DNA of 29,930 nucleotides from a virus. The notes under the pieces were generated by a model that worked only from the letters and a program-made list of their open reading frames with translations, did not search any database and was not told the DNA's origin. The DNA is taken from the IMG/VR virus record IMGVR_UViG_3300032056_000005, positions 1-29,930 of that record. One strand, 5' to 3'. Of this stretch, positions 552-27,763 are shown one piece after another. Numbering within the stretch: the first letter of the stretch is position 1; each line of letters opens with the position of its first letter. The translations under genes and the position numbers were made by a program.

Positions 552-3455
552 ATGGAACTGCGAACACTGCTACCGGATCGCGGGTATATCGTTCTGATGG
601 CCCAACGCGGCGACCGTCGCGAGTTTGTGACGGTTGAAGCCGGTCAGTGGGCAACGCTGGAACAGAAAATCGGTGCGGTGAAGGATAAGGCCAATCTGTA
701 CCTTTCGCGCGCCTCGCTGACGGTAAAGCCGGAAGCGGGCAAGCGCGGAACGTCTGACCTTTGCGGTTGGCAGAAAGTAGTCACCGTAGACCTAGACTAC
801 GGTTCTGCCGGTCACAACCGCGAAGGGTATCCGCCGGATCGCGACGCCGCGTTAGCACTGCTGGAAAAGCTTCCCAGCCCGTCAGCCGTCCTTTCCACCG
901 GCAACGGGCTATTGGTGTTTTGGGTGCTGGATCAAACGTACCCGATTGATGTGGTTGAGAAGGTTCAAAAAGGCATTCAGCGCGAATTGGAAGCCGTCGC
1001 CGCTTTGCGCGGGTACGTTGTTGACGATACGTCGGAGCGGGTGCGGATGTTCCGCGTTCCCGGGACGCTGAACCACAAATCTGATCCACCGAAGCCGGTT
1101 GAGTGGTTGTTCACCGATGGGCCGATCTATTCCCTTTCCGACCTCTCCGCCTACGCGCTGGAAATCCTTCCGGCGTTGCGGCTGAGCAGCGGTCAGCTTA
1201 GTGAGGAAACCGTTCGCGAGTTGTTACGGTATATCCCTCGCGAAGGGTTGGACTACAACCGTTGGCTGGCGTCGGTGTGGGCCGTTCAGTCGCTCTTTGA
1301 CGAACAGACGGCAGAGCGACTGTTAGACGAATGGGGTACACCCAACTGGCGGAAGCACAAGAAGCCGGAAGGGAAAGAGACTTCACCGGCAATTCTCATT
1401 GCGCTGGCCAAAGAGTACGGCTTTGCCGGTTCTGTCCGCAGTGAAGGGTTTGACGCCGTTCCGATTGCGCCGGAATTGCCGAACACACTGACGGTAGAAC
1501 AACGTTACCTTGACGTTCCGATGCCGTCGGAACGGGTAGTTGTTCTAAAGTCGGCAATCGGCACCGGAAAGACCGAACTTATCCGACGCTGGTTGGCCGA
1601 GCACTATCCGAAACAACCGGTGCTGGCCGTCTCTCACCGCGTTTCGTTGGTGAAGCAGATGGCGCAGCGGTTAGGACTGGAAAGCTACTTCAGCGAAGGC
1701 GAATGGAACGTTGACGCAAAGCGCCTGGCGGTAACGTTGCATTCGGTGGATAAGGTCAGCCCAAAGATAACGTATAAGGTAGTTGTCGTTGACGAAGTAG
1801 AACAATTCCTTCAGGCGTTGGTGTTTGACCGCAATCTCAGCAGTCGGAAGCTGAGCGTCTTCATTCACTTACTATCGCGGCTGGCTGCAGCAGAAAAGAT
1901 TATCCTCGCCGACGCCGACGCTGGCCCGTTGACGCTGCGGCTCCTCACCGCGTTAGGCGGGTCGGTACGGTCAATCGTCAATACGTATCGGCACTGTACG
2001 TATGAGTTGGTGTACCTCTCACCGACACCAGAGGAGGTTCTCAATCAAGCGCGGCGACTGTGTGCTGAAGGGTACAAAGTCGCAATCGCCTGCAACACCA
2101 AAGCCGACGTTGAGCGGGCCGAGATTTTCTTCAAAGCGGAACTACCAACTAAGCGGTTACTGGCCGTCACCGCAGACGGTCGCGAAGGGAACACCGACGT
2201 TCTGGCCAATCTAAACGAACGGCTAGAGACGGTTGATATTTTCCTCTTCTCACCATCCGTCGGTACCGGCGTTTCGATTGAACGGAACGATTTTGTTCTG
2301 TTCGGTATTGCCCGTTCCGCGCTGGAAGGCGTCGGTAATTCGTTGGACTTTGCCCAACAGCTAGGCCGGTTCCGAAACCCCATCGGAAAGACCGCGTTCT
2401 GTTGGGTTGACCCGAAGACGTTCAAGAACGTCGCAACCGACGCCGAACACTACCGCGATCTGGCCTTAATCCGTAAGAGCGCGGCGGATTTGCGCTTTGC
2501 GCCGGACGGTCAATCTTTCGTCCCACTGGCCGGTTTTGACGCACTGTACACCGACCTCTTCGCAATCGCGAAGGCCAAGGATGCGCTGCTAAAGCGCAGT
2601 TTCCTCAACAGTCTGGCCGGTATCTGGAACAGCAGCGAGATTGCTGCGGTACCGGCCAAGGGTGTTAAGGAAGCACTGACGCGAGAAGCGGCGCTGAATA
2701 TCCGAAAGGTTATCAACGGTAGTCGCCGCGAGAAGGTAGAAGTGGAGATCGCCGCGATTGCGAATGCCCCGAACACCGAGGCCGAGGCGAAAGCGGTTGA
2801 TCAACTGGAATACTACGCGCAGAAAGAAGAAATCGCCGAGCGGTACGGTTGTGCAATCGAAGAGGTAACGGCGGAATTGGTCAAAGCAGACCGCAACGGC
2901 GCTTATCAGAAAGCTCAGCGGTTGTACGCGCTGGTGAATGCGGAATACGCGCAGTGGAAGGATCAGCAAGAGCGGATTGAAAAGCCGACTGCCGATCTCC
3001 GGCTGTTCGGCCCGTTCACCGAATGGCTGCTGGCGATCCTTACCGTCTTCAGAATTGAACTCCGCGAAGGCGCACCGGTTCGGGCAACACCGGAAGGGAT
3101 TGCGTTCCTGAAGACCTACCGGTCAGCGATTGAAGCGCTGCTCGGTGTTCGCGTTCGGTCAGACGTTGACACCGCGCCGATCCGAACACTGTCGGCTATT
3201 TTAGCCACCGTCGGCATTCGCGTTGTCGGCGTTCAGCGACGCGAAGGAACAACGCGCGTTCGCGAATACCGGCTGGCCGGAGTTGAGGAAGCGTTCAAGC
3301 GAACGCGGGGGATCGCAAAGCGGTTTGAGGTCATCAAATCGTTGCAATCGCAACTTTGTCACAGGAGTTCTCAATATATTATGAGTATCCGATCTCCTGT
3401 GACAGAAGGATCATTAACCGGCGCCGCGCTGATTGAATGGAAAGGAGAGCGCTAA
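552..3455 (+). CDS. Primase-polymerase fused to superfamily 2 helicase (replication initiator)
   Basis: This 967-aa protein probably primes and unwinds DNA at the replication origin. Residues 1-200 look like a RepB/PrimPol-type archaeo-eukaryotic primase: a D-x-D pair (D80, D82) and the motif RVPGTLNHK (about 168-176). A helical region at about 216-265 resembles the primase C-terminal (PriCT) domain. The helicase follows, with Walker A SAIGTGKT (334-341), HRVSL (about 362), Walker B VVVDEVE (D414-E415), SVGTGVSI and QQLGRFR. This order recalls cyanobacterial plasmid CyRepA-type initiators and herpes UL9-like origin-binding helicases; the assignment is from motifs only. Residues about 936-951 are encoded by a copy of the dispersed inverted repeat. 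The leader carries AAGGGG before ATG, and the stop overlaps the next start (TAATG). Confidence 0.88.
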   Translation: MELRTLLPDRGYIVLMAQRGDRREFVTVEAGQWATLEQKIGAVKDKANLYLSRASLTVKPEAGKRGTSDLCGWQKVVTVDLDYGSAGHNREGYPPDRDAALALLEKLPSPSAVLSTGNGLLVFWVLDQTYPIDVVEKVQKGIQRELEAVAALRGYVVDDTSERVRMFRVPGTLNHKSDPPKPVEWLFTDGPIYSLSDLSAYALEILPALRLSSGQLSEETVRELLRYIPREGLDYNRWLASVWAVQSLFDEQTAERLLDEWGTPNWRKHKKPEGKETSPAILIALAKEYGFAGSVRSEGFDAVPIAPELPNTLTVEQRYLDVPMPSERVVVLKSAIGTGKTELIRRWLAEHYPKQPVLAVSHRVSLVKQMAQRLGLESYFSEGEWNVDAKRLAVTLHSVDKVSPKITYKVVVVDEVEQFLQALVFDRNLSSRKLSVFIHLLSRLAAAEKIILADADAGPLTLRLLTALGGSVRSIVNTYRHCTYELVYLSPTPEEVLNQARRLCAEGYKVAIACNTKADVERAEIFFKAELPTKRLLAVTADGREGNTDVLANLNERLETVDIFLFSPSVGTGVSIERNDFVLFGIARSALEGVGNSLDFAQQLGRFRNPIGKTAFCWVDPKTFKNVATDAEHYRDLALIRKSAADLRFAPDGQSFVPLAGFDALYTDLFAIAKAKDALLKRSFLNSLAGIWNSSEIAAVPAKGVKEALTREAALNIRKVINGSRREKVEVEIAAIANAPNTEAEAKAVDQLEYYAQKEEIAERYGCAIEEVTAELVKADRNGAYQKAQRLYALVNAEYAQWKDQQERIEKPTADLRLFGPFTEWLLAILTVFRIELREGAPVRATPEGIAFLKTYRSAIEALLGVRVRSDVDTAPIRTLSAILATVGIRVVGVQRREGTTRVREYRLAGVEEAFKRTRGIAKRFEVIKSLQSQLCHRSSQYIMSIRSPVTEGSLTGAALIEWKGER
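3341..3404 (+). promoter_or_regulatory. Composite inverted-repeat element, copy 1 (inside a gene)
   Basis: Upstream half-dyad GTTGC-AATC-GCAAC (3341-3354), then TGTCACAGGAG (3357-3367), AT-rich core with TATTAT, and CTCCTGTGACA (3394-3404). It lies inside the 3' end of the primase-helicase frame and is translated there. It points toward the nuclease-like gene starting 51 bases downstream, so it could give that gene its own promoter. Confidence 0.8.
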
Positions 3456-3898
3456 TGCCCGCGTTCCGCACCGATTTGGCCTTCGGTAAAGCCGCCGAAA
3501 CGCGGATTGCCGCTGCGGTGGTTGAAGCACTGTTCCCTTCCGGTGTTGCCGTCCGCTGGCCGGAAACGGCATTGGTGGATTTTGTGATCATCCAAAACGC
3601 CGTTGTGGTTGCGGCGCTGGAAGTTAAACGCCGTCGCGTTCCGTCAACTGCGTTCGACGAAACGATATTGCCGGAAGCGATTGTCCGTACCGGCGTTGAG
3701 TTGACCGAGCGGCTGAAAATCCCGTTGCTGGCCGCAATTGCGTTCAGTGACGATACGCTGTTCGTTTTCCGCGTTCGGCCACAGCAGAAGGTTATCCAAA
3801 TCCCAAACCGCGCCGGTAATCCGGTACCCCACCACTGTTTTTCTCTGGCCGGTACCGACGTTATCCGTCTTAAGACGGATTTTTCAACGTCACTTTGA
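3455..3898 (+). CDS. Small PD-(D/E)XK nuclease-like protein
   Basis: The 147-aa product has an acidic residue in LVDFVII followed by the strand-type motif AALEVKRRR, the spacing and E-x-K signature of PD-(D/E)XK nucleases. The family includes Holliday-junction resolvases and restriction-like enzymes; which one this is cannot be told. I prefer the ATG at 3455, which overlaps the stop of the replication gene (TAATG) and follows AAAGGAG, over an in-frame ATG at 3437 that precedes that ribosome site. Placement directly after the initiator/helicase suggests a role in DNA replication or repair intermediates. Its last 12 codons contain an intrinsic terminator and its stop lies in the two-copy element before the packaging genes. 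Confidence 0.65.
   Translation: MPAFRTDLAFGKAAETRIAAAVVEALFPSGVAVRWPETALVDFVIIQNAVVVAALEVKRRRVPSTAFDETILPEAIVRTGVELTERLKIPLLAAIAFSDDTLFVFRVRPQQKVIQIPNRAGNPVPHHCFSLAGTDVIRLKTDFSTSL
3863..3884 (+). terminator. Intrinsic terminator ending the replication block
   Basis: ATCCGTCTTAAGACGGAT is a perfect palindrome able to form a hairpin and is followed by TTTT. It lies within the final codons of the nuclease-like gene, so termination would occur before the stop codon for part of the transcripts. Confidence 0.6.
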
Positions 3899-3936
3899 GT
3901 TATTTGGCAACAAACCGTCTGTATATATATGGAGGG
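3891..3936 (+). promoter_or_regulatory. Two-copy upstream element before packaging genes
   Basis: CACTTTGAGTT, TTTGGCA and AAACCGTCTGTATATATATGGAGGG recur in the same order at 29795-29844 (whose right part is also bases 1-41). Both copies include the stop codon of the upstream gene and the ribosome site of the next. It could be a phage-specific late promoter with TTGGCA and TATATATAT as its boxes, or a translational leader signal. Because the TATA stretch abuts GGAGG, a normal sigma70 start would remove most of the leader. Confidence 0.55.
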
Positions 3937-3941
3937 GGTAA

Positions 3942-4133
3942 ATGGATTTCGAGGAACTCGTATCAATCGCGCTGGAAATCGCCCGCGACCGGTCACTGAA
4001 ACCATCAGACCGGATTGCCGCGTTGCGGCTGTTGTTCCCGATAGCCCTCAAACGTTCCGAACAGCGCCCGACCGATCCCGATGAACTCTTTGAACGCATC
4101 CGCGCCGCCGTTCTCGCCGAACAACCTTCCTGA
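3942..4133 (+). CDS. Possible small terminase subunit or small helical protein
   Basis: A 63-aa, mostly helical product starts 5 bases after a GGAGGGGG ribosome site and overlaps the large terminase start by 53 bases. Position directly before the large terminase is where the small, DNA-recognising subunit normally sits. The protein is much shorter than typical small terminases, which combine a helix-turn-helix with an oligomerisation core, and I see no clear DNA-binding motif. The name therefore rests on location only. Confidence 0.5.
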   Translation: MDFEELVSIALEIARDRSLKPSDRIAALRLLFPIALKRSEQRPTDPDELFERIRAAVLAEQPS

Positions 4134-5655
4134 AACCGGCCCGTTGGGCCGTCGGCGACTGCGCGCAGCGGATGATCTCGAATACTTTGCGCGGGCTTAT
4201 TTTCCCGACCTTTTCCCAACCGAACCGCCACCGTTTCACCGCGAGGCGTTTGCACTGCTGAACGAAATTGCCGCAAACGCCAGACAGAAACGGCCAGGAA
4301 AGCGACTGGCGATTGCCTACCCGCGAGGGCACAGTAAAACCACTATCTACAGCCGCGTTGCCGTTATCCATTCGCTGTTGTACCGTTGGTCTCCGTTGAC
4401 AATTCTTATCGGCAACAACGATAGAAGCGCAAAGCGGTTGCTGAAGAATATCAAAGACGATTTAGAGAGCAACGAACTCTTACGCGAAGATTTTCCGATC
4501 CTTCACCGACCGGCAAAAGTCTGGTCTGCGACCGCAATCGAACTCGCCGACGGCTGCGCGGTTTCGGTGTTCGGGCGCGGTAGTGGCGCCATACGCGGAG
4601 TGGTCTCAAAACGAAGGCCGACGCTGGTAATCGGTGACGATATTGAAGACGACACCAGCATCCGCAGCGAGATCGAAACATCGGCGCTGATCGAATGGTG
4701 GAATAGGGCGGTACTGGCCGTCGGCGATAATATCACCGGTACCACAACCTATATCCTTGTCGGTACCATTCTGGCCAGACAAAGCCTATTCGTTTCGTTT
4801 GCCGAAACGCCAGGCGTTACCGCGTTGATCTATCCGGCGCTGATCACCCCTCCGACCAATACCGACCTTTGGGCCGAATGGGAACGGCACTATACCGCGC
4901 ATCCGGTTGATACGCCGGAAGCGGATACGTTCTACCAACAACACAAAACTGAATTGGCCAAAGGCGCTACGCTGTTGTGGGATCGGCCAGACGCGCTGTG
5001 GTATATCTATCAGTATCGTCTTAGTCGCGGTGAGTTGGCCTTTCAGCGCGAGCTTCAGAATAACCCCTATTCCGACGATACCCAGCCGCTCGGCCCGTTG
5101 CCGGAAAGTGATCCGATCACCGGTTATCGGATTGCGGCGCTTGACCCGACCGTCAGCGGCGCAAAGACGGCAGACTATCCGGCCTACGTTGAGATCGTCT
5201 TTGATCCGGCCACAAAGAAGGCCGTATTGGATTACTGTTTGGCCGAACGGGCAGACTACGGCACAACGGTACGGATGATTGCGGATCGGATTGCGCAACT
5301 ACCGAAACCGCTTGATGGGTTGGTAGTAGAGGCCAACAGCGCCGGTGCGGTGATTGCCGATCTGTTGCAGCAAGAGCTAATCCGACGCGGGCGAACCGAA
5401 GTTGCGACCAAGATTTACAACAAAGTACCGAAGGCACAACGGATAGCGGCCCTGGCCGTCTACGCCAGACGCGGGCAGTTTGCGATACGGCGAGGATTAG
5501 GCGGCGAGTTTGTAAGAGAATGGCAGTCGTATCCGGCGGTCAGAAACGATGACGCACTTGACGCGGCGGCGACGGCAATGCGGTTTTTAGAAGAGCAACG
5601 ATTACTACTGTTGGGTGAACCGAATGCATACTTCTTCGACCCAGAAGAGCTATAA
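4081..5655 (+). CDS. terL: Terminase large subunit (packaging ATPase/nuclease)
   Basis: The 524-aa product is the motor that cuts concatemeric phage DNA and pumps it through the portal. The ATPase half has Walker A YPRGHSKTT (80-88) and Walker B LVIGDD (D186-D187). The RNase H-like nuclease half shows its acidic residues in AALDPTVSG (D355), VVEANSAG (E427) and DDALDA (about D501). Length fits the family. The ATG at 4081 lies inside the preceding small gene and lacks a good ribosome site, so translation may be coupled; no better start is visible before the conserved region. The end overlaps the methyltransferase start. Confidence 0.93.
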   Translation: MNSLNASAPPFSPNNLPETGPLGRRRLRAADDLEYFARAYFPDLFPTEPPPFHREAFALLNEIAANARQKRPGKRLAIAYPRGHSKTTIYSRVAVIHSLLYRWSPLTILIGNNDRSAKRLLKNIKDDLESNELLREDFPILHRPAKVWSATAIELADGCAVSVFGRGSGAIRGVVSKRRPTLVIGDDIEDDTSIRSEIETSALIEWWNRAVLAVGDNITGTTTYILVGTILARQSLFVSFAETPGVTALIYPALITPPTNTDLWAEWERHYTAHPVDTPEADTFYQQHKTELAKGATLLWDRPDALWYIYQYRLSRGELAFQRELQNNPYSDDTQPLGPLPESDPITGYRIAALDPTVSGAKTADYPAYVEIVFDPATKKAVLDYCLAERADYGTTVRMIADRIAQLPKPLDGLVVEANSAGAVIADLLQQELIRRGRTEVATKIYNKVPKAQRIAALAVYARRGQFAIRRGLGGEFVREWQSYPAVRNDDALDAAATAMRFLEEQRLLLLGEPNAYFFDPEEL

Positions 5656-6499
5656 TCCGCGATTTGGGGTTCAGACCGGCGATATTTGGCGGGTGGGAAA
5701 TCAGTATTTGGTTTGCGGCGACGCCGCCGATCCTTCGGTTAAAGAAACCGTTACGCGGTTGTTGCCGGTAGAGACAATCCTTACGTCACCACCTTACCCG
5801 AAAGTTCGGAAATATCAAGAGATCGGCGACGTACCGTTTGCGGTTGTTACCGGTATCCTCGCCGGTCTGGCCGAGATCGAAACCGTTCAGAGTGCGTTTG
5901 TCAATCTCGGTATCGTTCACATCAACGGTACCGTTTGGCGGTATTGGGAAACACTGATCGAAGCGTTTCCGTTCCCTCTGTTCCAATGGATCGTTTGGGA
6001 TAAGCTCACACCGGTCCCGCGAGACGAGAACGGTAGGTTACTGCAATCGTTCGATTTTGTGTTTCACTTCAAGCGACCGGATCACCGACCGCCGCTACAG
6101 CGTTCGCGAAAGCTAAAGACTGCCGGGAAGGTATCGAACGGTTTCACCGTTCGCGAGCCGGACGGACGAATACGACGGTTTGAACCGGAAAATAGTTCGT
6201 ATCGAACACCGGAATACGGGATTGAACACAACGTTATCCGACTACCGAACGAACACCGCCGCGATATACGAACGGCGCATCCGGCAGTGTTTCCGGTTGA
6301 ATTACCACAGTGGGTTATGAAGGCCTATCGATACCAATACTGGCTAGACCCGTTTGTCGGATCGGGGTCAACGCTGATCGCCGCCGAGCGCGAAGGGTTG
6401 CGGAGTGTTGGGATTGAAATCGTTCCGTACTACGCCGATCTCGCACTGGCCCGCTGTGAGAAAGAAGGGTTAGCGATTGAGAGGATACACCGGCAATGA
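5615..6499 (+). CDS. DNA methyltransferase, beta-class (N4-cytosine or N6-adenine)
   Basis: This 294-aa enzyme should transfer methyl groups from S-adenosylmethionine to an exocyclic amino group in DNA. The catalytic motif TSPPY (57-61) comes before the SAM-binding motif DPFVGSGST (245-253), the order of beta-class enzymes; TSPPY favours N4-cytosine but does not prove it. The middle region (about 120-215) would recognise the target. No restriction partner is encoded, so it is probably an orphan enzyme protecting phage DNA or marking it for packaging. Start is GTG at 5615 or ATG at 5624, both inside the terminase gene. It overlaps the portal start by ATGA. Confidence 0.88.
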   Translation: MNRMHTSSTQKSYNPRFGVQTGDIWRVGNQYLVCGDAADPSVKETVTRLLPVETILTSPPYPKVRKYQEIGDVPFAVVTGILAGLAEIETVQSAFVNLGIVHINGTVWRYWETLIEAFPFPLFQWIVWDKLTPVPRDENGRLLQSFDFVFHFKRPDHRPPLQRSRKLKTAGKVSNGFTVREPDGRIRRFEPENSSYRTPEYGIEHNVIRLPNEHRRDIRTAHPAVFPVELPQWVMKAYRYQYWLDPFVGSGSTLIAAEREGLRSVGIEIVPYYADLALARCEKEGLAIERIHRQ

Positions 6500-7725
6500 T
6501 CCCCCAAACGGCACAATCGAAAGCCGCGCTGATCCACACCATTCGTCAGGCGGTCAACCCACCGGCCAGACCGTTGCCGGTACCGTTGCGGTCTCTATTT
6601 GGTAGAGAGTTCCGAACGCCGTTACCGGTTCTTCAAGCGGTGATCGCTGCGGTTGCGGATAAGCTCTATCTGGCCAGGGTGCGAAACCGGCGGAAAACCG
6701 TCGAACAGCAAATCGGGCGGATACTCACCACGTCGGAGTATCAACTACGACTGTTGTTCGCGGCGGTTGTGCGCGACGGTACCGGCTATCTGATGATCGT
6801 CACCGATCCGAAACCCGCATTGGTGTTTGTACCGGCATACGACGGAACGATAGGCGCGTTTTCGTTCACCGACGGCGCGATAGGGATTGTCGGAATTACC
6901 GATACTGGCGAGCGGTTGTTGACGGTGTTCCGAACCGGTACCATCGAACGCTATCGCGAACAGTCGCAACAATGGGTTCGCACCGAAACCGAACGCTGGC
7001 CGTATCCGATACCGGTGATCGAATTCGGTGACGGAAAATCGTTCGTTGAGCCGCTCATCCAACTGCAAGACGATTTAAACCTAGCCGTCTTCGATCTTCT
7101 TGCCGCAAACCGCGCCGTAGGCTTTCCGGTGCGGTATATCCTCGGTAGTGCCAGTAGTGATTACCTCACAAACCTTTTCGGTCAACCGTTGATCGACGCA
7201 ACTGGCGCGCCGATCCGGCGAACGATAACGCTTGAACCAGGCGCGTTTGTGCGGATCAGTGAACCAAATGCCGAAATCGGCCAGCTTTCCGCTTCTCCGC
7301 CCGACGCGACCACCATTAATACGCTGTTGGAATTGTTCAGTCTTTTCACCGGCGTACCGCTCTTCTTCTTCAAGGGTACCGTACCTTCTGGCGCCGCCAT
7401 TCAGGCGGCTGAACAACGGCTGAATGCGACGGTAGAACGGTATCAATCACTGCTTTCCGATCCCCTTCGCCGCGTTTGCGCAACGCTGGCCGCATTGGTG
7501 GCAAACCGTCAGAGTGACGAAGACGAATGGGTGGTTGACTGGTATCCGCCGCAGATCGAAACCGAAGAACTACGGGCGCAACGGGTGAAGTGGGTGGTTG
7601 AAGCGGTGAATGCCGGTCTAATGAGCAAAGAAGAAGCCGTTCGTACCATTCACCCAGACTGGCCGGAAGAACGGATTATTGAGGAGGTAGCAAAGCTCAA
7701 TGGAAGCCCAGAACCAGGAAACTGA
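6496..7725 (+). CDS. Portal protein
   Basis: The 409-aa protein would form the dodecameric ring at one capsid vertex through which DNA enters and leaves. The sequence fits the SPP1 gp6-like/HK97-type portals: an N-terminal helical region, a beta-rich wing (about 90-170), a long helix around LIQLQDDLNLAVFDLL, and a C-terminal clip region. I see this from overall pattern and gene order (terminase, then portal, scaffold, coat), not from a single catalytic motif. The ATG overlaps the methyltransferase stop; the 3' end overlaps the scaffold gene by 26 bases. Confidence 0.82.
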   Translation: MIPQTAQSKAALIHTIRQAVNPPARPLPVPLRSLFGREFRTPLPVLQAVIAAVADKLYLARVRNRRKTVEQQIGRILTTSEYQLRLLFAAVVRDGTGYLMIVTDPKPALVFVPAYDGTIGAFSFTDGAIGIVGITDTGERLLTVFRTGTIERYREQSQQWVRTETERWPYPIPVIEFGDGKSFVEPLIQLQDDLNLAVFDLLAANRAVGFPVRYILGSASSDYLTNLFGQPLIDATGAPIRRTITLEPGAFVRISEPNAEIGQLSASPPDATTINTLLELFSLFTGVPLFFFKGTVPSGAAIQAAEQRLNATVERYQSLLSDPLRRVCATLAALVANRQSDEDEWVVDWYPPQIETEELRAQRVKWVVEAVNAGLMSKEEAVRTIHPDWPEERIIEEVAKLNGSPEPGN

Positions 7726-8179
7726 GATTACCGAGCCGGTAAAACCGCCGGTTGAACAACCGACCGAAGACCTTCGCGCCACCCTTCGCAGTGAGATTGA
7801 AGCAGAATTGCGCGAAGCGTTGCGGAAAGAGATCGAAGCCGAACTGCGAGAGAAGTTGCGCGAAGAGATCGCGAAAGAGTACGAAGCACAACGGCGGAAA
7901 GAAGAGCTTCAGCGCGTTCGGCAATCGCTGATCGAAGAGTACGAATTGAACAGCGAGCAGATCGAAGTACTAGACCTTTTACCGATTGAAGACCCTACCG
8001 AATTATCGCGACGGGTTGAGCGATTGTTTGGGCGGCAAAAGACGCCGAAGGTCAAATCACCGCAATTGATTACCGAACCGGAAGTATTTACCGTTGCACA
8101 GATCAAAGACCCCGCGTTCTGGCGACAAAACCGCGAGAAAATCCTACGCGCCGCAGCAGAAGGTCGTATTGTTGAATAG
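7700..8179 (+). CDS. Capsid scaffolding protein
   Basis: A 159-aa, very highly charged protein with long Glu/Arg/Lys heptad-like helices (about 24-80), including three near-repeats of EIEAELREALRKE type, and a basic-leaning C-terminal segment. This composition and position between portal and coat genes are typical of scaffolding proteins that guide procapsid assembly and are then removed. No protease gene is visible nearby, so the scaffold would leave intact or be cut by host enzymes. A GGAGG lies 12 bases before the start. Confidence 0.75.
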   Translation: MEAQNQETEITEPVKPPVEQPTEDLRATLRSEIEAELREALRKEIEAELREKLREEIAKEYEAQRRKEELQRVRQSLIEEYELNSEQIEVLDLLPIEDPTELSRRVERLFGRQKTPKVKSPQLITEPEVFTVAQIKDPAFWRQNREKILRAAAEGRIVE

Positions 8180-8189
8180 GAGGGAGTAA

Positions 8190-9104
8190 ATGACCGTCAA
8201 CTTAGGTAGTGGAAACGTCGGGTTAAACTACGTTCCGACAATCCTTGCCCAGCGCGCCCTTGAACTTCTTCGCGCTACCCATATTCTGCCGCGCTTTGCA
8301 ACACCCGATACGCGGTATGAAACGGCCCAATTCGGCCAGACGATTACAATCCCCCGCCCAATGAGTACGACTGCGAACCAGAAGCTACCAGGCCAGCAGG
8401 TGACCATCCAAACACCAACCGGATCAAACGGATTGCAGATCACCCTCAACCAGCATTGGGAAGTGACAACGGTAATCGAAGATACCGCCGCGTTGCTGGC
8501 CAATCAATCACTGATGGATTTATTCGTCCAAGACGCTGTTCGCTCGCTGGCAGAGCAAATGGAAGCGTCGCTGTTCACCGCCCTTAACGCTGCGGTGACA
8601 ACGAACGATACCGACGCCGCCGCAGCGCTGGAACTTTCCGAAATCCGGTTGGTGCGCCAGCGTCTGACTGAGGCTCGTATTCCGGTCAGTGGTCGGATTG
8701 CGGTGATCGGGCCGGAAGTTGAGACACAGATCAAGAGCGATACCGGTCTGGCGAACTACTTCGCGTACCAGCAGGCGACCATTGCCGAAGGTTCCATCGG
8801 GCGCCTAGAGGGGTTTGACTGGTACGTCTCGCAGTTGGTGCCGGTGATTACCGGAACGCCGAATAAGCGCGCCAACTTCTTCTACCATCCGCGAGGTCTG
8901 ATTGTGGCCATCCGGCCATTACCCGAAGTACCTTCCGGTATGGGCGCGGTAACGTCAACCGTCACCGACCCCGAAAGTGGGTTGGCAATGCGGGTTGTGA
9001 GCAGCTATAACCCGAACTACCTCGGAACACAGATCACACTCGATATGCTGTGGGGTGTCGGCGTCGTTCGCGAATACACCTGGCGGGTACGAACGAATGT
9101 TTAG
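8190..9104 (+). CDS. Major capsid (coat) protein, P22-like
   Basis: The 304-aa product forms the icosahedral shell. Features resembling the P22 coat-protein family are the N-terminal LAQRALELLRATHILPR, the segment FGQTITIPRP, and the late ESGLAMRVVSSYN motif; the fold would be HK97-like. An excellent GGAGGGAGTAA leader precedes ATG. It follows the scaffold gene by 10 bases and overlaps the next gene by 8. It should be the most abundant virion protein. Confidence 0.87.
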   Translation: MTVNLGSGNVGLNYVPTILAQRALELLRATHILPRFATPDTRYETAQFGQTITIPRPMSTTANQKLPGQQVTIQTPTGSNGLQITLNQHWEVTTVIEDTAALLANQSLMDLFVQDAVRSLAEQMEASLFTALNAAVTTNDTDAAAALELSEIRLVRQRLTEARIPVSGRIAVIGPEVETQIKSDTGLANYFAYQQATIAEGSIGRLEGFDWYVSQLVPVITGTPNKRANFFYHPRGLIVAIRPLPEVPSGMGAVTSTVTDPESGLAMRVVSSYNPNYLGTQITLDMLWGVGVVREYTWRVRTNV

Positions 9105-9462
9105 TTACGATCCTGGCCAAATCAACCCAGATACCGGCCAGCCGATTTCGGCGATCCGGTTCCTGCTTCAGGATACCGTCGAAGAGCTGGCCGAGTTCAC
9201 CGATGCAGAGATTGTGGGGGTTTACCAACAAACCCCCAGTAGTCATCCGCAACGGGTACGGGTGTACTACGCCGCCGCACTGCTGGCCGAAGCGCTGTAC
9301 CGCCGGTACAGCAGGGACGTATCCTTCTCCGCCGGTGATCTGAAGGTTAACTACGAACTACGCCGCCAACACTGGCAGTTGTTGGCCAACGAATTAGCCC
9401 AGACGGCGCTTCGGCAGATCGGTGAAGGGTTGGTGTGGTACACCGAGCGCGGGGTTTGGTAA
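9097..9462 (+). CDS. Head-tail connector (adaptor) protein
   Basis: A 121-aa mainly helical protein with the adaptor-like start SYDPGQINPDTGQPISAIR, then DTVEELAEFTDAEIVGVY. These features fit the gp15/gp6-like adaptors that sit under the portal. I take ATG at 9097, just before the coat stop, because homologous proteins normally begin close to the SYDPG segment; an in-frame ATG at 9055 would add 14 residues. The stop is followed two bases later by a reversed copy of the dispersed composite element, an abrupt break in an otherwise continuous structural operon. Confidence 0.78.
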   Translation: MFSYDPGQINPDTGQPISAIRFLLQDTVEELAEFTDAEIVGVYQQTPSSHPQRVRVYYAAALLAEALYRRYSRDVSFSAGDLKVNYELRRQHWQLLANELAQTALRQIGEGLVWYTERGVW

Positions 9463-9464
9463 GT

Positions 9465-9528
9465 TGTCACAGGAACGGTGAAGCTATAATAATATTGAGA
9501 ACTCCTGTGACAAAGCTGACTGGTCAAC
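9465..9528 (-). promoter_or_regulatory. Composite inverted-repeat element, copy 2 (reversed)
   Basis: Read on the minus strand: GTTGACCAGTCAGC, then TTTGTCACAGGAGTTCT, core TCAATATTATTATAGC and a degenerate right arm ending in CCTGTGACA. The upstream dyad is on the high-coordinate side, which fixes the orientation. As a promoter it would fire antisense into the connector gene; as an operator or road-block it could separate head and tail transcription. Confidence 0.75.
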
Positions 9529-9630
9529 CATCCGCGCCGGTGATCGGGCAATAACCCGAAAGTATTAGACGTTTAATTCGCGAATTGTAGTTCGTAGTTC
9601 CTCTCAAACCCTCTCAACGCGGCGCGGATC
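9529..9630. other. Non-coding spacer between two opposed composite elements
   Basis: About 100 bases with no convincing reading frame, lying between a reversed and a forward composite element in the middle of the head-tail operon. It contains a short hairpin CGGGcaataaCCCG (9545-9558), a perfect 12-bp palindrome AATTCGCGAATT (9575-9586), and two CCTCTCAAAC/CCTCTCAACG near-repeats. It could be an origin, a regulator site or a small RNA; nothing decides between these. Confidence 0.4.
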
Positions 9631-9694
9631 GTTGCGGGTGAAACGTTGTCACAGGAGTTCTTAAGATATATTATAGCTTCCGCGCTGCTGTGAC
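9631..9694 (+). promoter_or_regulatory. Composite inverted-repeat element, copy 3
   Basis: GTTGC-GGGT-GAAAC upstream dyad, TTGTCA, TGTCACAGGAGTTCT left arm, core with TATTATAGC, and a decayed right arm (CTGCTGTGAC). The element ends 8 bases before the ATG of the head-closure gene; a start point near 9682 would give a leader of about 20 bases. Confidence 0.8.
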
Positions 9695-9702
9695 GGTGAT
9701 CT

Positions 9703-10071
9703 ATGCGAGCAACAGACCGAGCAACCCTCCGCGCCTTAGCGCGGCGGTTTCTTACCGATACCGTCTTTACCCTCGCCCGTTCGGTGACGATTACCGACTT
9801 CGGCAACCTTCAAGAGACCTTCACCCGTTCCGGTTCGTTTCGCGGGCTGTTGGTGATTAATCGTTCGATCAACGCGGTCAGACAGCAGACGAAGGGAACC
9901 GACGCGGGTGAGACCGTTACCGGAACGGTACGTATCCTCTGTGAAGAAGCACCGCCAAACGTCGAATGGGTTGAGGTGAACGGTGAAATCTATCGCGTTC
10001 TGGCGGTGATCGCACTGCCGTACCGCGTCTTTGAAGAATTGCAGTGCAAACCGCGACGGGAGGTCGTATGA
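9703..10071 (+). CDS. Probable head-closure (stopper) protein
   Basis: The 122-aa protein has a helical start and a beta-rich body with VTITDFGNLQETF and VEWVEVNGEIYRVLAV, the pattern of small head-completion proteins (SPP1 gp16-like) that plug the connector after packaging. Identification rests on size, pattern and position between the adaptor and the first tail-tube-like gene. The ribosome site is weak (GACGGTGAT), and the gene sits right behind a composite element. Its stop overlaps the next ATG (ATGA). Confidence 0.62.
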   Translation: MRATDRATLRALARRFLTDTVFTLARSVTITDFGNLQETFTRSGSFRGLLVINRSINAVRQQTKGTDAGETVTGTVRILCEEAPPNVEWVEVNGEIYRVLAVIALPYRVFEELQCKPRREVV

Positions 10072-10505
10072 CGTATCTGGCCAGAGATTTTATCTTCGAG
10101 ATTAACGCCGGTTCGGGCTTTGTGACCGTCGGCGGCATTCAAGAGTGGTCGTTTACCGTTGAAACCGAGGTTCAAGACGCGACTACCGTCGGAAACACCG
10201 GCTGGAAAACCGAAATCCCAACACTCCGTAAGGCGCTGATTGAGTGTTCGGGGTTCGTTGCGGTCAACGGAGTAACCCGCGACGCCGGTCAATTGGCGGT
10301 GTTGAGCGCGGCGACAACCGGCGCTTCCGTTCAGTTTCGCGTCTCAACAACGATACTGAACGGTGGCAACCCGATAGGCAGTATCTCCGGCAACGCCTAT
10401 ATCGAATTGACTACCGGCGCCGGAGGCGGAACGTCTGAACTCGGTGAGTTTTCCTTCCGCGTTCACTTCGTTGGTCAGCCGACGTTCAGCGGAATATTTG
10501 CCTAG
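10068..10505 (+). CDS. Tail-tube-like protein 1
   Basis: A 145-aa beta-rich protein related to the product of 12291-12719: both begin with a strand plus a GIQEW/GIQSW turn and end in a glycine-rich loop followed by a strand pair and a terminal FSG/YTG-x-FA. Tail-tube proteins stack into the hollow tail. Having two related genes suggests one is the main tube subunit and the other a minor tube, tail-tip or decoration protein. I chose ATG at 10068 because GGGAGG precedes it and it overlaps the upstream stop. A composite element begins 4 bases after the stop codon. Confidence 0.7.
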   Translation: MTYLARDFIFEINAGSGFVTVGGIQEWSFTVETEVQDATTVGNTGWKTEIPTLRKALIECSGFVAVNGVTRDAGQLAVLSAATTGASVQFRVSTTILNGGNPIGSISGNAYIELTTGAGGGTSELGEFSFRVHFVGQPTFSGIFA

Positions 10506-10508
10506 GTA

Positions 10509-10572
10509 GTTGCCAACGGAACTTTGTCACAGGAGTTCTCAATATTATTATAACTTCAAACCTCCTGTGACA
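10509..10572 (+). promoter_or_regulatory. Composite inverted-repeat element, copy 4
   Basis: GTTGC-CAAC-GGAAC dyad; TTGTCA (10524-10529) and TATTAT (10546-10551) with 16-bp spacing; right arm CCTCCTGTGACA. A start near 10558 would give a leader of about 33 bases containing AAAAGGGG before the GTG of the minor-capsid gene, a good fit for a working promoter. Confidence 0.82.
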
Positions 10573-10591
10573 CCGGTGAAAAGGGGTACCG

Positions 10592-11560
10592 GTGACGGTC
10601 ACAAAGCTCATCCAAGCAATCCTAGAAGCCTATAGTCGCGCCGAGGCGAAGTTGCTCGCTGCCGTCGCTGATGCGGTAGAACGCAAAGATCGCGAACGGC
10701 AGTTGGCCGAACTCCGCCGCCAGGCGCAACAGATCGTTGAGCAATTACGGGCCGGAACGGTTGACCAGGCGCTGAAGGCGCTGATTGCAGCGTTTGAAGA
10801 GGGCGCGACAAAGGCCAAGGCCGATACCGTACTGGTCAACCCGACACCGAATGCCTTTCTCGCTGCCGAGTTGTTCAACCTCCTCGGTGAAACGCGGTTT
10901 GCACTGTTACGACAAACCGAAGACGCCTTCCGAACTGCCGTCGCCGCCGAAGTATCGCCGGTGCTGCTCGGCGCGGAAACGCGGTTAGGTTCGGCGGCGG
11001 ACGTATTAGCCTATCTGGCCGAGCGCGGGTTTACGTTCAGGGATCGTAGCGGACGCGAATGGGAATTGGCCAGTTACGTTGAAATGGCCACCCGAACGGC
11101 GACAATGAACGCCTTCCGCGAAGGTCGGGCGGCGTCACTGCTGGCCAACGGGTACGATTTGGTGGTTATCCGTTCCGGCCCGTCGCGCTGTCCGAAGTGC
11201 GATCCGTACAACGGAAAAATCGTCAGTCTGACCGGCAAACACCCGAAATACCCTTCACTAGAACGGGCCAAAACCGACGGCGTATTTCACCCGAACTGCC
11301 GCTGTTCCTTTTCGGCTTACATTGAGGGGTTGACGGAAACCGAACCGGTTGAACGGGTTCCGAACTATTACGCCGAAGAGCAAGAACTACGGCGGTTAGA
11401 ACGCGAAGCGAGGTCACTGCGGCGGATTGTTGCCGTTACCGGAGACGAGGCCGCAAAAGACCAATTGAAGGTCGTCACAGAACAGATAAAGGCGTTGGTT
11501 GAGGATACTGAAGGATTGACCCGAAAGCCGCACCGAGAACAGATAGGAGTACCGCGATGA
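10592..11560 (+). CDS. Minor capsid protein with MuF-like C-terminal domain
   Basis: The 322-aa product has a long helical N-terminus (1-130) and a C-terminal domain with RSGPSRCPKCDPYNGK and VFHPNCRCSFSAYIEG, the Cys/His pattern of phage minor-capsid protein 2/Mu gpF-like proteins that join the head interior or portal. Start is GTG with AAGGGG upstream. Such genes normally follow the portal; here it sits between two tail-tube-like genes, so the head and tail modules have been rearranged. The C-terminal tail (about 255-322) is highly charged. The stop overlaps the next ATG. Confidence 0.8.
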   Translation: MTVTKLIQAILEAYSRAEAKLLAAVADAVERKDRERQLAELRRQAQQIVEQLRAGTVDQALKALIAAFEEGATKAKADTVLVNPTPNAFLAAELFNLLGETRFALLRQTEDAFRTAVAAEVSPVLLGAETRLGSAADVLAYLAERGFTFRDRSGREWELASYVEMATRTATMNAFREGRAASLLANGYDLVVIRSGPSRCPKCDPYNGKIVSLTGKHPKYPSLERAKTDGVFHPNCRCSFSAYIEGLTETEPVERVPNYYAEEQELRRLEREARSLRRIVAVTGDEAAKDQLKVVTEQIKALVEDTEGLTRKPHREQIGVPR

Positions 11561-12719: not shown

Positions 12720-12722
12720 TTC

Positions 12723-12809
12723 GTTGCGGACGGAACTTTGTCACAGGACTTCTCAATATATTATATATTCATACTTCCTGTGACATCCGCGTAGGGACTT
12801 CCTGTGACA
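12723..12809 (+). promoter_or_regulatory. Composite inverted-repeat element, copy 5, plus extra right half-site
   Basis: GTTGC-GGAC-GGAAC dyad, left arm TGTCACAGGACTTCT, core with TATTATATAT, right arm ACTTCCTGTGACA ending at 12785. A second right arm ACTTCCTGTGACA occurs at 12797-12809. The extra arm ends 13 bases before the tail-chaperone ATG. Confidence 0.78.
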
Positions 12810-12822
12810 GAAAGGATGATTG

Positions 12823-18988: not shown

Positions 18989-19052
18989 TGTCACAGGAGT
19001 TCTGAAGCTATAATAATATTGAGAACTCCTGTGACAACGTTACAGACGTAAC
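18989..19052 (-). promoter_or_regulatory. Composite inverted-repeat element, copy 6 (reversed)
   Basis: On the minus strand: GTTAC-GTCT-GTAAC, a perfect version of the upstream dyad, then TTGTCACAGGAGTTCT, core TCAATATTATTATAGC and AGAACTCCTGTGACA. Arms are perfect 15-mers. It points back into the lysin gene, so it would make antisense RNA if active, or act as a block at the end of the late operon. Confidence 0.8.
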
Positions 19053-19510: not shown

Positions 19511-19539
19511 AGTATAGCGCTGCCGGTTCGGGTTGTCAA
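19511..19539 (-). promoter_or_regulatory. Consensus promoter of the minus-strand gene
   Basis: On the minus strand CCCTCTTGACA, 17-bp spacer, TATACT (-35 at 19539-19534, -10 at 19516-19511). It gives a leader of about 30 bases to the ATG at 19473. Confidence 0.87.
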
Positions 19540-19545: not shown

Positions 19546-19607
19546 TGTCACAGCAGTGCTGATCTTATAATATATTGAGAACTCCTGTGACAAAGTTCCA
19601 CAGTCAC
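19546..19607 (-). promoter_or_regulatory. Composite inverted-repeat element, copy 7 (reversed)
   Basis: Minus-strand reading: partly conserved dyad ending GGAAC, TTTGTCACAGGAGTTCT, core CAATATATTATAAG, and a decayed right arm (AGCACTGCTGTGACA). It lies between two divergent consensus promoters and is oriented toward the minus-strand gene. Confidence 0.77.
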
Positions 19608-20417: not shown

Positions 20418-20481
20418 GTTGCGTTAGAAACGTTGTCATAGGAGTTCTCAATATTATTATAGCTTCAGCGTTCCTGTGACA
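20418..20481 (+). promoter_or_regulatory. Composite inverted-repeat element, copy 8
   Basis: GTTGC-GTTA-GAAAC dyad, TTGTCATAGGAGTTCT left arm (one C-to-T change), the standard core TCAATATTATTATAGCTTC and right arm GTTCCTGTGACA. A consensus sigma70 promoter begins 6 bases after the element, so two promoters or an operator-promoter pair are stacked. Confidence 0.82.
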
Positions 20482-20487: not shown

Positions 20488-20516
20488 TTGACAGCCGATT
20501 GCCGCTGTGGTATACT
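20488..20516 (+). promoter_or_regulatory. Consensus promoter for the 66-aa protein gene
   Basis: CCCTCTTGACA, 17-bp spacer, TATACT. Leader of about 35 bases with AGGAGG before ATG. Confidence 0.88.
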
Positions 20517-23696: not shown

Positions 23697-23699
23697 ATC

Positions 23700-23763
23700 G
23701 TTGATCAGTCAGTTTTGTCACAGGAGTTCTCAATATTATTATAGCTTCAGAACTCCTGTGACA
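23700..23763 (+). promoter_or_regulatory. Composite inverted-repeat element, copy 9 (best arms)
   Basis: Upstream GTTGATCAGTCAGT, then perfect 15-bp arms TGTCACAGGAGTTCT and AGAACTCCTGTGACA around an 18-bp core. -35 TTGTCA and -10 TATTAT are 16 bp apart. A start near 23750 gives a leader of about 36 bases with AAAGGGG before the nuclease ATG. Confidence 0.85.
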
Positions 23764-23785: not shown

Positions 23786-24469
23786 ATGATCGTTGAACAA
23801 CTTACCGAACTACTGAAGCAGAGACCGGCCAGACCACAGCGGTTGGTGTACGCCAGCGACGCAACCGGCTGTGAGCGGAAACTAACACTGGCGCTGTTGG
23901 GCGTTCCGGCAACCGACGCCGTAAGCCGCGATCACTGGTTGTGGTCGGCGGAGATCGGTACGGCCATTCACCAACAACTACAATCGTTGTTCCAACAACT
24001 CTACCCAGACTGTCAAACCGAATTGCGGGTAGAAGAAGCGGGGATACTATCCGGTCGGATTGACGTATTGGCCAGGATTGACGGAAAGCTGACGGTGATC
24101 GATATTAAGACCGTCAGCAGCCGCGAATACCGCGCCAGAACGAAGATCGGTCAGTACAAGGATCAGATCAACCTTTATGGCCGTCTGACCGGCGCGGAGG
24201 TCGGTTGTATCCTTTTGGTCAACCGCGATACCGGCGAATTAGACGAAATCGTCTTCGATATTGACAACGAACGAGCCGAGGCGCTGCTTAACCGCGCAGC
24301 CGGTATCGTTGCACTGGCCAAAAGCGGCGTTATCGGTCGGGCGGAGTGGTTTGGAAGTCAATACTGCGCGTTGTTTTGTCCGTATCGAACCCTCTGCTAC
24401 GATCTTGACAACACCGGATTTGTGGGATATAATACAACTACGGCGATTGAGCCGGAAGTATTTGAGTAA
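23786..24469 (+). CDS. Cas4/RecB-like PD-(D/E)XK exonuclease with Fe-S cysteines
   Basis: The 227-aa protein has the Cas4/RecB-type nuclease layout: a first Cys (C29), GTAIHQQL (H62), GRIDVL (D93), VIDIKTV (D106, K108), QINLY (Q127-Y131), and a C-terminal cluster C194-x3-C198-x5-C204, which with C29 could hold a 4Fe-4S cluster. Such enzymes trim single-stranded ends in recombination. No CRISPR array is present, so a role in phage recombination or end processing with the neighbouring SSB-like and resolvase-like proteins is more likely than spacer acquisition. It has its own composite element upstream and holds a promoter in its 3' end. Confidence 0.88.
   Translation: MIVEQLTELLKQRPARPQRLVYASDATGCERKLTLALLGVPATDAVSRDHWLWSAEIGTAIHQQLQSLFQQLYPDCQTELRVEEAGILSGRIDVLARIDGKLTVIDIKTVSSREYRARTKIGQYKDQINLYGRLTGAEVGCILLVNRDTGELDEIVFDIDNERAEALLNRAAGIVALAKSGVIGRAEWFGSQYCALFCPYRTLCYDLDNTGFVGYNTTTAIEPEVFE
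24415..24433 (+). promoter_or_regulatory. Perfect consensus promoter inside the nuclease gene
   Basis: TTGACA (24415-24420) starts the -35 box; the -10 TATAAT ends at 24433. Within that interval I count a gap shorter than the full 17-bp spacing only if the last nuclease codons are miscounted; by line position TATAAT begins at 24428, so the spacer should be re-measured. It would drive the SSB-like gene, whose ATG follows GGAGG about 50 bases later. Confidence 0.5.
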
Positions 24470-24982: not shown

Positions 24983-25367
24983 GTGGAAGTACCGCGAACG
25001 GGAAGCCGTAAAAACAATTCAAGCAGTATTGGGAAGGGTGAAAGACCCTTCCCTTGCTGCGTTGGTGACGGCTACCGGTCGGGTTGGCCACTTAACGCAC
25101 TTAGGCGCAGATGGGATTGTCGGCGACGGCGATACCGGCGCGGTGGTTGAGGTCAAGGCCCGCAAGGGTATGGTGTCGGCGGATATTCGGTCGGCGTTGG
25201 TGCAACTCACCGAAATTGCCAACGCGCTTCAACGCTGGCCAATTCTCGTACTTTCGTTTGTTGAGGACGTACCGGCAGCGGTTGAACGCAATTGGGCGTT
25301 GGTGCCGGTATCGTTGTTAGAAAGGTTGGCGTATGAGCGAGAAGGAATTACTGAACGCGATCCTTAA
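24963..25367 (+). CDS. Holliday-junction resolvase-like PD-(D/E)XK nuclease
   Basis: The 134-aa protein carries GADGIVGDGDTGAVVEVKAR, in which the Asp and the E-x-K of VEVKAR match the PD-(D/E)XK core, after a basic N-terminus (MKKSRSRWKYRERE). VRC/Hjc-like phage nucleases have this size and layout. It could resolve branched DNA before packaging. It starts inside the SSB-like gene (GAGGTGGTGG upstream) and overlaps the next gene by 35 bases. Confidence 0.68.
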   Translation: MKKSRSRWKYREREAVKTIQAVLGRVKDPSLAALVTATGRVGHLTHLGADGIVGDGDTGAVVEVKARKGMVSADIRSALVQLTEIANALQRWPILVLSFVEDVPAAVERNWALVPVSLLERLAYEREGITERDP

Positions 25368-25704
25368 GCGCTTTCCGAGGATTGCCGAAGAGGTCAAACA
25401 GAAACCAAGAGTGGCCAGGAAGGTAGTTCGGTTGGCGTTGAGAGAGCCGCGAACGGTAGCGACGCTGATCAAGCAATTCGGCTACACCGATAGGCTGATC
25501 CTGGCCGCATTCCGGTGCTGGCCGGAACTCGCAACCGTCGCGGAGACAGACGAAACGGCGGCTACAATCCTTTCTGACCTTCAGCGGGCGGTAGAGAACG
25601 TTCCGCCGCACTGGCGGGCGCTACTGTTCACCGGCGACAAACGTTCACCGAGGGTACGGGCCGCGCTGAAGCGGATCAAAGAAGTGCTGGGGGAAGGCGT
25701 ATGA
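25333..25704 (+). CDS. Unknown helical protein, 123 aa
   Basis: No family recognised. Almost all helix, strongly basic in the first 60 residues (FPRIAEEVKQKPRVARKVVR) and with a Leu/Ala-rich repeat-like arrangement of short helices. ATG lies inside the resolvase-like gene, so translation is probably coupled; the TGA overlaps the next ATG. A DNA- or protein-binding accessory of the replication group is likely, without further evidence. Confidence 0.7.
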   Translation: MSEKELLNAILKRFPRIAEEVKQKPRVARKVVRLALREPRTVATLIKQFGYTDRLILAAFRCWPELATVAETDETAATILSDLQRAVENVPPHWRALLFTGDKRSPRVRAALKRIKEVLGEGV

Positions 25705-26509: not shown

Positions 26510-26513
26510 TCGT

Positions 26514-27695
26514 ATGGATCGGCAGACGGATGGGATTGTTGTCGGTGGGGTGCTGTTGGTCGTTACCGTTCTGGCCAACAGTAACCCCTTCCTTGCCGCC
26601 CTTGCCGGTATGGTTTGGTTTGTGGCGTTTCGACCGGAAGTGTTGACCGGTCTGATCGAACAGACCAAACAACTAACAGACGAAACCACAAAGGCAGTCA
26701 AGGCGTTACTTCCGGCGCGAGAAGAAGAGTGTCACAGGAGTTCTTATAATAATATAAGCGTAGAACCTCCTGTGACGCCGGTGAAGACCGAACAACCGCG
26801 TCAACCGGCCAAACCGGCACCGATAACGTATCCGCCGTCTTCGTTGCTCAATCTAGCCACAAAACCGACGGCGTTCAGTGTTCCCATCGGCGTTGATCAC
26901 ACCGGTCGGTTTCGCTGGCTAGACGTTCAACGCGATTTGGTGCACTGTGCCGTTTACGGTACCAGCGGTGCCGGTAAGGATCACCTATTACGTTGTTGGT
27001 ATCTCTCACTGGCCGACCAGCGGTCAATCCGTTGGGCAATTGTTGACGGGAAGGGCGACTGGCTGGTACCTTCAATCGTTGAGGACGAACGAAACCTTTT
27101 CCCACCGGCTGGCGGGTTTGGGGACGAAGGAACGGCGCGGATCAAAGACGGATTGAAGGAAATCCTTCGCGAAGCCGCGCGTCGGGCCGCGTTGATCGTT
27201 GAGGCCGGAGTTCGATCACTCGAAGAGTACAACGAACAAACCGGCGCGAACGAACCGTTGTTGATCGTTCTGATCACCGACGTTATTGACGCCGTTGCGG
27301 AGGTAGAGAAAACGCTTACCGCACTGATCAGCAAGGCCAGATCGTTAGGTATTAGGGTAATTTTCTCAGTGCAAACACCAACCGGCTTTTCGATGCAGTG
27401 GCGGATGAACGTCGGTACGGTGCTGGCCGGTGCGTTGGTTGATACGTCGCAAGACGCCGTCGCGCTCGGTATCCGCGATACAACAAAGCTACCGTTCCGC
27501 CCTTCAGCGCTTCCGCCGCCGCCAGCCGGTGCGGGGTTGTTTGTGTTTCGTCAAGGCGGTGATATTCGGCTTATCCGAACACCGCTGATCACCCAAACCG
27601 GCCAGCAAAGTAGTGCGTTTGACCGGCTGGTTCGCGAACGAAGGAACACCGCGTTGCTGGCCGATCTGTTGTCACAGGAGATTTCTACGCGGTGA
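26514..27695 (+). CDS. FtsK/TraB-like DNA-translocase ATPase with membrane anchor
   Basis: The 393-aa protein has two hydrophobic segments (about 7-21 and 24-40), a variable linker, and an ATPase domain at about 120-330 with Walker A GTSGAGKDH (149-157), a DGKGDW motif (178-183) and Walker B-like LLIVLITDVID. The P-loop ends in Asp instead of Ser/Thr, and the Walker B lacks the usual DE pair, so activity may be altered. FtsK-like motors pump double-stranded DNA. Residues 73-88 in the linker are encoded by a composite element. AGGGGG precedes ATG. No gamma (KOPS-reading) domain is evident. Confidence 0.8.
   Translation: MDRQTDGIVVGGVLLVVTVLANSNPFLAALAGMVWFVAFRPEVLTGLIEQTKQLTDETTKAVKALLPAREEECHRSSYNNISVEPPVTPVKTEQPRQPAKPAPITYPPSSLLNLATKPTAFSVPIGVDHTGRFRWLDVQRDLVHCAVYGTSGAGKDHLLRCWYLSLADQRSIRWAIVDGKGDWLVPSIVEDERNLFPPAGGFGDEGTARIKDGLKEILREAARRAALIVEAGVRSLEEYNEQTGANEPLLIVLITDVIDAVAEVEKTLTALISKARSLGIRVIFSVQTPTGFSMQWRMNVGTVLAGALVDTSQDAVALGIRDTTKLPFRPSALPPPPAGAGLFVFRQGGDIRLIRTPLITQTGQQSSAFDRLVRERRNTALLADLLSQEISTR
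26730..26776 (+). promoter_or_regulatory. Inverted-repeat element, copy 10 (inside the ATPase gene)
   Basis: TGTCACAGGAGTTCT, core TATAATAATATAAGC, right arm AGAACCTCCTGTGAC with one extra C. The upstream GTTGC dyad is missing. It is translated as CHRSSYNNISVEPPVT in the linker between membrane anchor and ATPase, in the same frame as the copy in the primase-helicase gene. Confidence 0.78.
27670..27680 (+). repeat. Isolated left half-site of the composite element
   Basis: TGTCACAGGAG within the last codons of the ATPase gene, 46 bases before a complete copy. No matching right arm follows. Confidence 0.6.
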
Positions 27696-27699
27696 GTTC

Positions 27700-27763
27700 G
27701 TTGCGGGTGGAACTTTGTCACAGGAGTTCTCAATATTATTATAGCTTTAGCGTTCCTGTGACA
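27700..27763 (+). promoter_or_regulatory. Composite inverted-repeat element, copy 11
   Basis: GTTGC-GGGT-GGAAC dyad, TGTCACAGGAGTTCT, standard core TCAATATTATTATAGC, right arm GTTCCTGTGACA. It begins 4 bases after the ATPase stop and precedes a consensus sigma70 promoter by about 48 bases. Confidence 0.83.

Follow-up and report, generated by a model that had tools for sequence, protein, structure and literature searches.

A gapped dyad dispersed at conserved places in uncultured phage genomes as a putative regulator-binding site

Introduction

A long gapped dyad recurs eleven times in the stretch of viral DNA analysed here (29,930 nt; hereafter the window), which raises the question of what this element does. 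The initial annotation described the copies as a composite operator-promoter regulon built of units of about 64 bp, in which a promoter lies between two operator arms. The window carries an identical 127-base repeat at both termini and is thus probably a complete phage genome. Its terminase was assigned from homology to relatives and from gene position, and it also encodes an SPP1-like portal, a P22-like coat, major tail proteins, a tape measure and an endolysin. Replication-type genes are represented by a family A polymerase, a primase/helicase with a Herpes_ori_bp match (ORF 552-3455) and an FtsK-like ATPase (ORF 26514-27695). Identification of a 223-aa early protein as a sliding clamp was unsupported when checked.

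The element in the window

The arms read TGTCACAGGAGTTCT and AGAACTCCTGTGACA and span 47–49 bp from arm to arm. All eleven copies were found where they had been annotated; with up to 3 mismatches allowed, 21 arm matches were observed against 0.32 expected, a number reached in no shuffle. The left arm is almost invariant (perfect or with 1 mismatch in all 11 copies). The right arm is loose, with its outer ten bases mainly kept, and because it is perfect in only two copies (18989 and 23716) strict palindromy extends over about 10 bp (TGTCACAGGA/TCCTGTGACA). A 16-base left extension, GTTGC-N5-GAACTT, is clear in about eight copies and is included in the annotated forward starts; the dyad itself is shorter than the 64-bp unit. 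Two half-sites near 12797 and 27670 also proved real, yet weaker. Nine of the eleven copies lie in intergenic gaps, as annotated, and the other two (3357 and 26730) are inside the primase and FtsK-like ORFs. TTGTCA and TATTAT are indeed 15–17 bp apart in ten copies, the exception being the copy at 26730, whose core is TTATAATAATATAAG. The features are as follows (window coordinates).

Element 1: 3357..3404, + strand; 3′ end of the primase/helicase ORF, ahead of the PDDEXK and terminase genes; left extension from 3341
Element 2: 9465..9512, - strand; starts 3 bp past the stop of gene 9097-9462
Element 3: 9647..9695, + strand; immediately 5′ of gene 9703-10071
Element 4: 10525..10572, + strand; flanked by tail-protein gene 10068-10505 and minor head gene 10592-11560
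Element 5: 12739..12785, + strand; second tail-protein gene on one side, then 12823-13173
Half-site: 12795..12809, - strand; adjoins element 5; 3 mismatches
Element 6: 18989..19036, - strand; both arms perfect; past the endolysin gene in a convergent gap, followed by a two-way terminator
Separate sigma-70 promoter TTGACA-17-TATACT: 19511..19539, - strand; adjoins element 7
Element 7: 19546..19592, - strand; flanked by divergent sigma-70 promoters 19539(-) and 19632(+)
Element 8: 20434..20481, + strand; follows a terminator-like hairpin, with promoter 20488(+) 7 bp further
Separate sigma-70 promoter TTGACA-17-TATACT: 20488..20516, + strand; adjoins element 8
Element 9: 23716..23763, + strand; both arms perfect; gap between the DNA polymerase gene and PDDEXK gene 23786-24469
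Candidate regulator gene: 25333..25704, + strand; 123-aa all-helical protein with two HTH-like segments
Element 10: 26730..26776, no strand assigned; FtsK-like ORF, in the linker ahead of the ATPase domain; core unlike other copies
Half-site: 27670..27684, + strand; 3′ end of the FtsK-like ORF; 2 mismatches
Element 11: 27716..27763, + strand; 20 bp past the FtsK-like stop codon and 5′ of promoter 27812(+)
Separate sigma-70 promoter TTGACA-17-TATACT: 27812..27840, + strand; 3′ of element 11

Elements in related phages

Two contigs that are 95% identical to the window, L022 and L031, carry elements at matching places; their metagenomes (3300028839 and 3300028818) are from hot-spring mats at 51 and 62 degrees (sample table, PMC9600594). 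Element 1 shows 0/67 changes between L022 and the window at an overall divergence of about 5%. The L022 element at 10525 looks like the window element at 12739, which suggests exchange between element copies.

A gapped-dyad scan of genome contigs identified three copies on two contigs of MAG KatS3mg105, from a Katase hot-spring sample (described in PMC9671151). Terminase and coat proteins on these contigs are 45–50% identical to those of the window, and mis-binning is the probable source of the phage contigs in the Gemmatales bin. The Katase dyad, TGTCACAGGACTTTTCT/AGAAAAGTCCTGTGACA, has copies at the capsid end and also within the FtsK-like linker, and two further KatS3mg105 contigs have one element within the FtsK-like ORF, located like element 10 in the linker. 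The outer arms are identical between the Katase contigs and the window, and the inner arms have changed on both sides together. A TGTCACAGGA dyad also turned up on eleven other genome contigs, which do not resemble the window and seem to be chance matches, and further matches to the arm 15-mer in viral contigs were single copies, also without similarity to the window.

Single-protein searches with the terminase and polymerase returned few relatives, and an alignment search with the terminase returned mainly distant terminases. The useful clade came from an alignment search with the FtsK-like protein, which yielded 17 viral contigs; the one that was looked up (3300028820) is from a hot-spring mat (sample table, PMC9600594). 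This large clade and the window have in common a primase, polymerase, nucleases, the FtsK-like protein and two membrane proteins, and almost no structural genes. All 17 contigs carry a dyad with arms TGTCACAACAC/GTGTTGTGAC[GA] around a core TA[TG]AAATAAAAGA. We found 171 copies, 164 of them exactly 46 bp long, and among these 164 left-arm positions 2–11 are invariant save for one base in one copy. The arm consensus is clade-specific in that each lineage has its own, common to all copies in a genome. In a wider scan of viral contigs the element occurred on 86 stretches, with several copies per contig.

A search of related phages had been set beforehand as the test that could refute the annotation, with absence or random placement of the elements as the adverse outcome; the elements are present, and at fixed places. 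At the 3′ end of the primase ORF an element is found in 12/12 relatives, 12–24 bp ahead of the stop codon (51 bp in the window). The FtsK-like ORF contains the element in 17/17 relatives, with copies in the linker and near the end of the ATPase domain. In 14/14 an element follows 6–11 bp after the capsid stop codon, usually together with more copies about 100 bp apart, and in 11 genomes an element lies 16–17 bp ahead of the start codon of the membrane-protein gene TM1. Protein identity across phages that have these fixed places is 39–53%. Element orientation agrees with the FtsK direction in 150/171.

Selection and orientation

For the copies in the FtsK linker, agreement at four-fold third bases is 97% in the arms versus 69% in the flanks, and this constraint on third-codon positions indicates that selection acts on the DNA. 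Inner stem pairs vary independently, without covariation. Furthermore, in the window and in three relatives (G014, G015 and G018) elements occupy convergent gaps or the space that separates a terminator from the next sigma-70 promoter. Placement outside predicted transcripts, together with independent variation of the inner stem positions, argues against an RNA element.

At the site ahead of the terminase gene, relatives differ in the direction of the core, which is inverted in place in 12/28, within flanks that are up to 95% identical; in G002 and G006, for instance, the core at this site is nearly the same but reversed. In contrast, past the capsid gene inversion was found in 0/42, the core having a single direction in 42/42, and ahead of TM1 the direction is constant (11/11). 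The contrast of 0/42 with 12/28 gives a Fisher p of 3e-6, the strength of which is overstated by the phylogenetic non-independence of the relatives. Short inverted repeats are known to mediate inversion mutations. The contrast thus reads as selection on direction at the post-capsid and pre-TM1 sites only, and the element seems to work directionally at some sites and in either orientation at others. A TATAAT/TACAAT-like sequence with no evident -35 lies some 50 bp past the terminase-side element, so that a role as an upstream site is plausible for this element.

Promoter content and a candidate regulator

Ten of the window copies score 10/12 against sigma-70, and a sigma-70 reading of these copies is plausible. 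The only 11–12/12 match in window positions 1–15000 is at 466, yet that stretch contains five elements. Promoters in the forward orientation had been annotated, but the reverse strand of most copies scores nearly as well (9–11 of 12), and the copies at 9465(-) and 18989(-) point away from any drivable gene. A promoter embedded in the element would have no obvious target in several cases, where the copy is flanked by a terminator on one side and a separate promoter on the other or has convergent terminators on both sides; the same holds for the two or three copies within the FtsK-like ORF. The 171 elements of the 17 relatives usually reach 8/12 at best against sigma-70, and near-perfect TTGACA-17-TATA[AGC]T promoters are located elsewhere in the same genomes. 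The sigma-70 promoter therefore fails as a universal function of the element. Thus, one part of the composite regulon stood, namely dispersed dyads at conserved places that are promoter-like in the window, while its sigma-70 feature is not conserved.

The product of 25333-25704 occupies the same gene position as a 144–151 aa protein in 16/17 relatives, and models of the family at this position contain two helix-turn-helix-like segments. An HTH_18 match in this family is weak (15/17 members, best E 0.001), as is the profile link between the window protein and the large-clade family (11% probability). Fold searches with the candidate gave no significant structural match; sigma-like viral proteins among the fold matches had E above 3 and so were not used as evidence. 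The two-HTH-like protein is the most likely candidate binder, a lead that names a small conserved protein for a direct binding assay.

Discussion

We consider it likely, though by no means secure, that the element is the binding site of a regulator, a phage protein, and that some copies contain a promoter. The observations behind this reading are the architecture, the conserved places, selection at the DNA level, the concerted change of the arms and in-place inversion at one site only. A phage-encoded regulator would recognise the inverted TGTCACA... arms, which are separated by roughly three to three and a half turns of the helix. Arm sites and protein would co-evolve lineage by lineage, in which case a lineage-specific consensus common to all copies is to be expected. 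Copies that precede genes (post-capsid, pre-TM1, primase end and intercistronic in the window) have a directional AT-rich core that would probably be the regulated promoter of the next unit. For the lineage of the window we envisage a weak sigma-70 promoter, TTGTCA-15/17-TATTAT, whose -35 and spacer would be covered by one arm, the other arm lying past the start. Copies in convergent gaps or 5′ of separate promoters would serve as orientation-free operators or upstream sites. We infer the protein, the direction of its effect and the transcription start at any copy.

A repressor on the arms could instead silence early units or halt elongation, with the AT-rich core giving a promoter match by coincidence. 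Such pure operators, or roadblocks of the stoperator type, which we judge unlikely, would suit the copies found within ORFs, in convergent gaps and, for small early genes, between the terminator and the promoter, as well as the similar promoter scores on both strands; the stoperator repressor too has two DNA-binding domains (PMC9283540). However, orientation is fixed behind the capsid gene and ahead of TM1 though the core inverts elsewhere, stoperators differ in form (see below), and no integrase was seen in the window. An improbable reading is that the elements are cis sites for replication, segregation or DNA handling, oriented along the genome and read, for example, by the primase/helicase or the FtsK-like translocase. 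The replication-type module common to the clades, the agreement with FtsK direction and the copies within the primase and FtsK-like ORFs all speak for it, but the close spacing to TM1 and to the capsid stop codon suits gene control better, and orientation flips freely near the terminase.

Small promoter-gene-terminator cassettes are separated by elements in G015, copies are homogenised within a genome and cores are inverted in place, all of which would fit cassette-boundary recombination sites or a miniature mobile element spreading among gene ends. We regard this as quite improbable, since the length is constant at 46 bp, places are fixed across phages of such low protein identity, no duplicated target bases were seen, no empty sites occur in the 95% relatives and no recombinase gene was found. 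Long inverted arms, and several copies right behind stop codons, could also suggest an RNA hairpin acting in mRNA processing, stability or termination. This reading is very improbable and was rejected: the right arm is degenerate, the inner stem does not covary, several copies are outside predicted transcripts, and an Rfam search with the element gave no match at the gathering score.

A regulator-binding site would place the element beside several known systems. The ESAS of Cluster K mycobacteriophages are imperfect 15–17 bp inverted repeats in units of ~45–50 bp, with the left repeat better kept than the right and a consensus that varies by subcluster; they have a SigA-like -35 in the left arm and hexamers 17–18 bp apart, are mostly intergenic and ahead of start codons, and their regulator is unidentified in published work (PMC3203893, PMC11373665). 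The element described here has the same kind of repeat in a unit of the same size, likewise with a better-kept left arm, a clade-dependent consensus and a mostly intergenic location. Thus, the annotated absence of any similar phage element does not extend to form, as ESAS combine a dyad with an inner SigA promoter, but it does hold for sequence: the ESAS arm consensus, TGTTGACATGCATACAG (from Adephagia), is unrelated to TGTCACAGGAGTTCT. The ESAS-linked 13-bp SAS at start codons, GGGATAGGAGCCC, had no match in the window with up to 2 mismatches. As to an inner promoter, the hexamers of the window copies are 15–17 bp apart and match at 10/12, and the large clade usually matches at 8/12. Finally, ESAS sit in the non-structural half, whereas our elements are also found in structural operons, ORFs and convergent gaps. 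Because sequence, SAS association and range of locations differ, we do not file the element as an ESAS; we place it among dispersed phage dyad control sites. ESAS-type dyads in the literature searched were from mycobacteriophages only. Such an architecture with unrelated sequence, in 171 further copies from 17 uncultured phages, suggests a wider use of dispersed dyad control sites among phages.

L5-like (Cluster A) stoperators are likewise dispersed control sites bound by a phage protein, but they are 13-bp asymmetric sites with the consensus GGTGGMTGTCAAG; this sequence had one 2-mismatch match in the window against 0.8 expected and is not enriched. Cluster O mycobacteriophages have more than 30 dispersed 17-bp dyads in and between genes, of unknown function (PMC4351075). 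That repeat, TGTTCGG-N3-CCGAACA, was not found in the window, and it is a short compact palindrome whereas the element is a long gapped dyad.

The large-clade core resembles T4-type late promoters in having TA[TG]AAATA and no evident -35. T4-type late promoters, TATAAATA, lack a -35 and also lack dyad arms, and no gp55-like factor was identified here. Speculatively, and with rather little likelihood, the elements could belong to an undescribed transcription system of hot-spring tailed phages, in which a small two-HTH or sigma-like protein would read the inverted TGTCACA arms and the AT-rich TATAAATA-like core and would switch on middle and late units. The core would be small enough to invert spontaneously between the arms, so that selection on its direction could be read site by site. 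The comparative data set, through position, arm co-evolution and in-place inversion, separates directional from orientation-free use.

Rearrangement of the elements

Two paralogous major-tail-like genes of the window, 10068-10505 and 12291-12719, are each followed directly 3′ by an element. In L022, a relative 95% identical to the window, the element behind the first paralogue resembles the window element behind the second, suggesting from this comparison that elements were exchanged between the two loci. At the same spot ahead of the terminase operon, close relatives carry the 46-bp element in opposite orientations between near-identical flanks:

L202 (a relative) 16132-16279, and matching places in the other relatives: inverted element in the region upstream of the terminase operon

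We also observed a series of small autonomous cassettes in L189 (7795-11950) that recur at intervals of about 600 bp, each ordered as sigma-70 promoter, small gene, terminator and element.

Additional putative promoter sequences

A 37-bp repeat, TTGGCA...ACCGTCTGTATATATATGGAGGG, looks like a second promoter type. It precedes a membrane-protein gene (49-492) as well as a small gene ahead of terminase (3942-4133); a further 51 bp upstream of the repeat are partly similar, and its exact core is retained at position 4564 of L022.

Window 5-41, 3900-3936 and 29808-29844: 37-bp repeat
Window 24405-24433: perfect TTGACA-17-TATAAT promoter inside the PDDEXK gene

The next gene (24482) begins just after the latter promoter, and several relatives carry a similar one at the corresponding place.

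Assignment of the hot-spring contigs

Phage contigs L056, L062, L160 and L161, which represent at least two related phages, are filed under the metagenome-assembled genome Gemmatales bacterium KatS3mg105, into which they were probably mis-binned.
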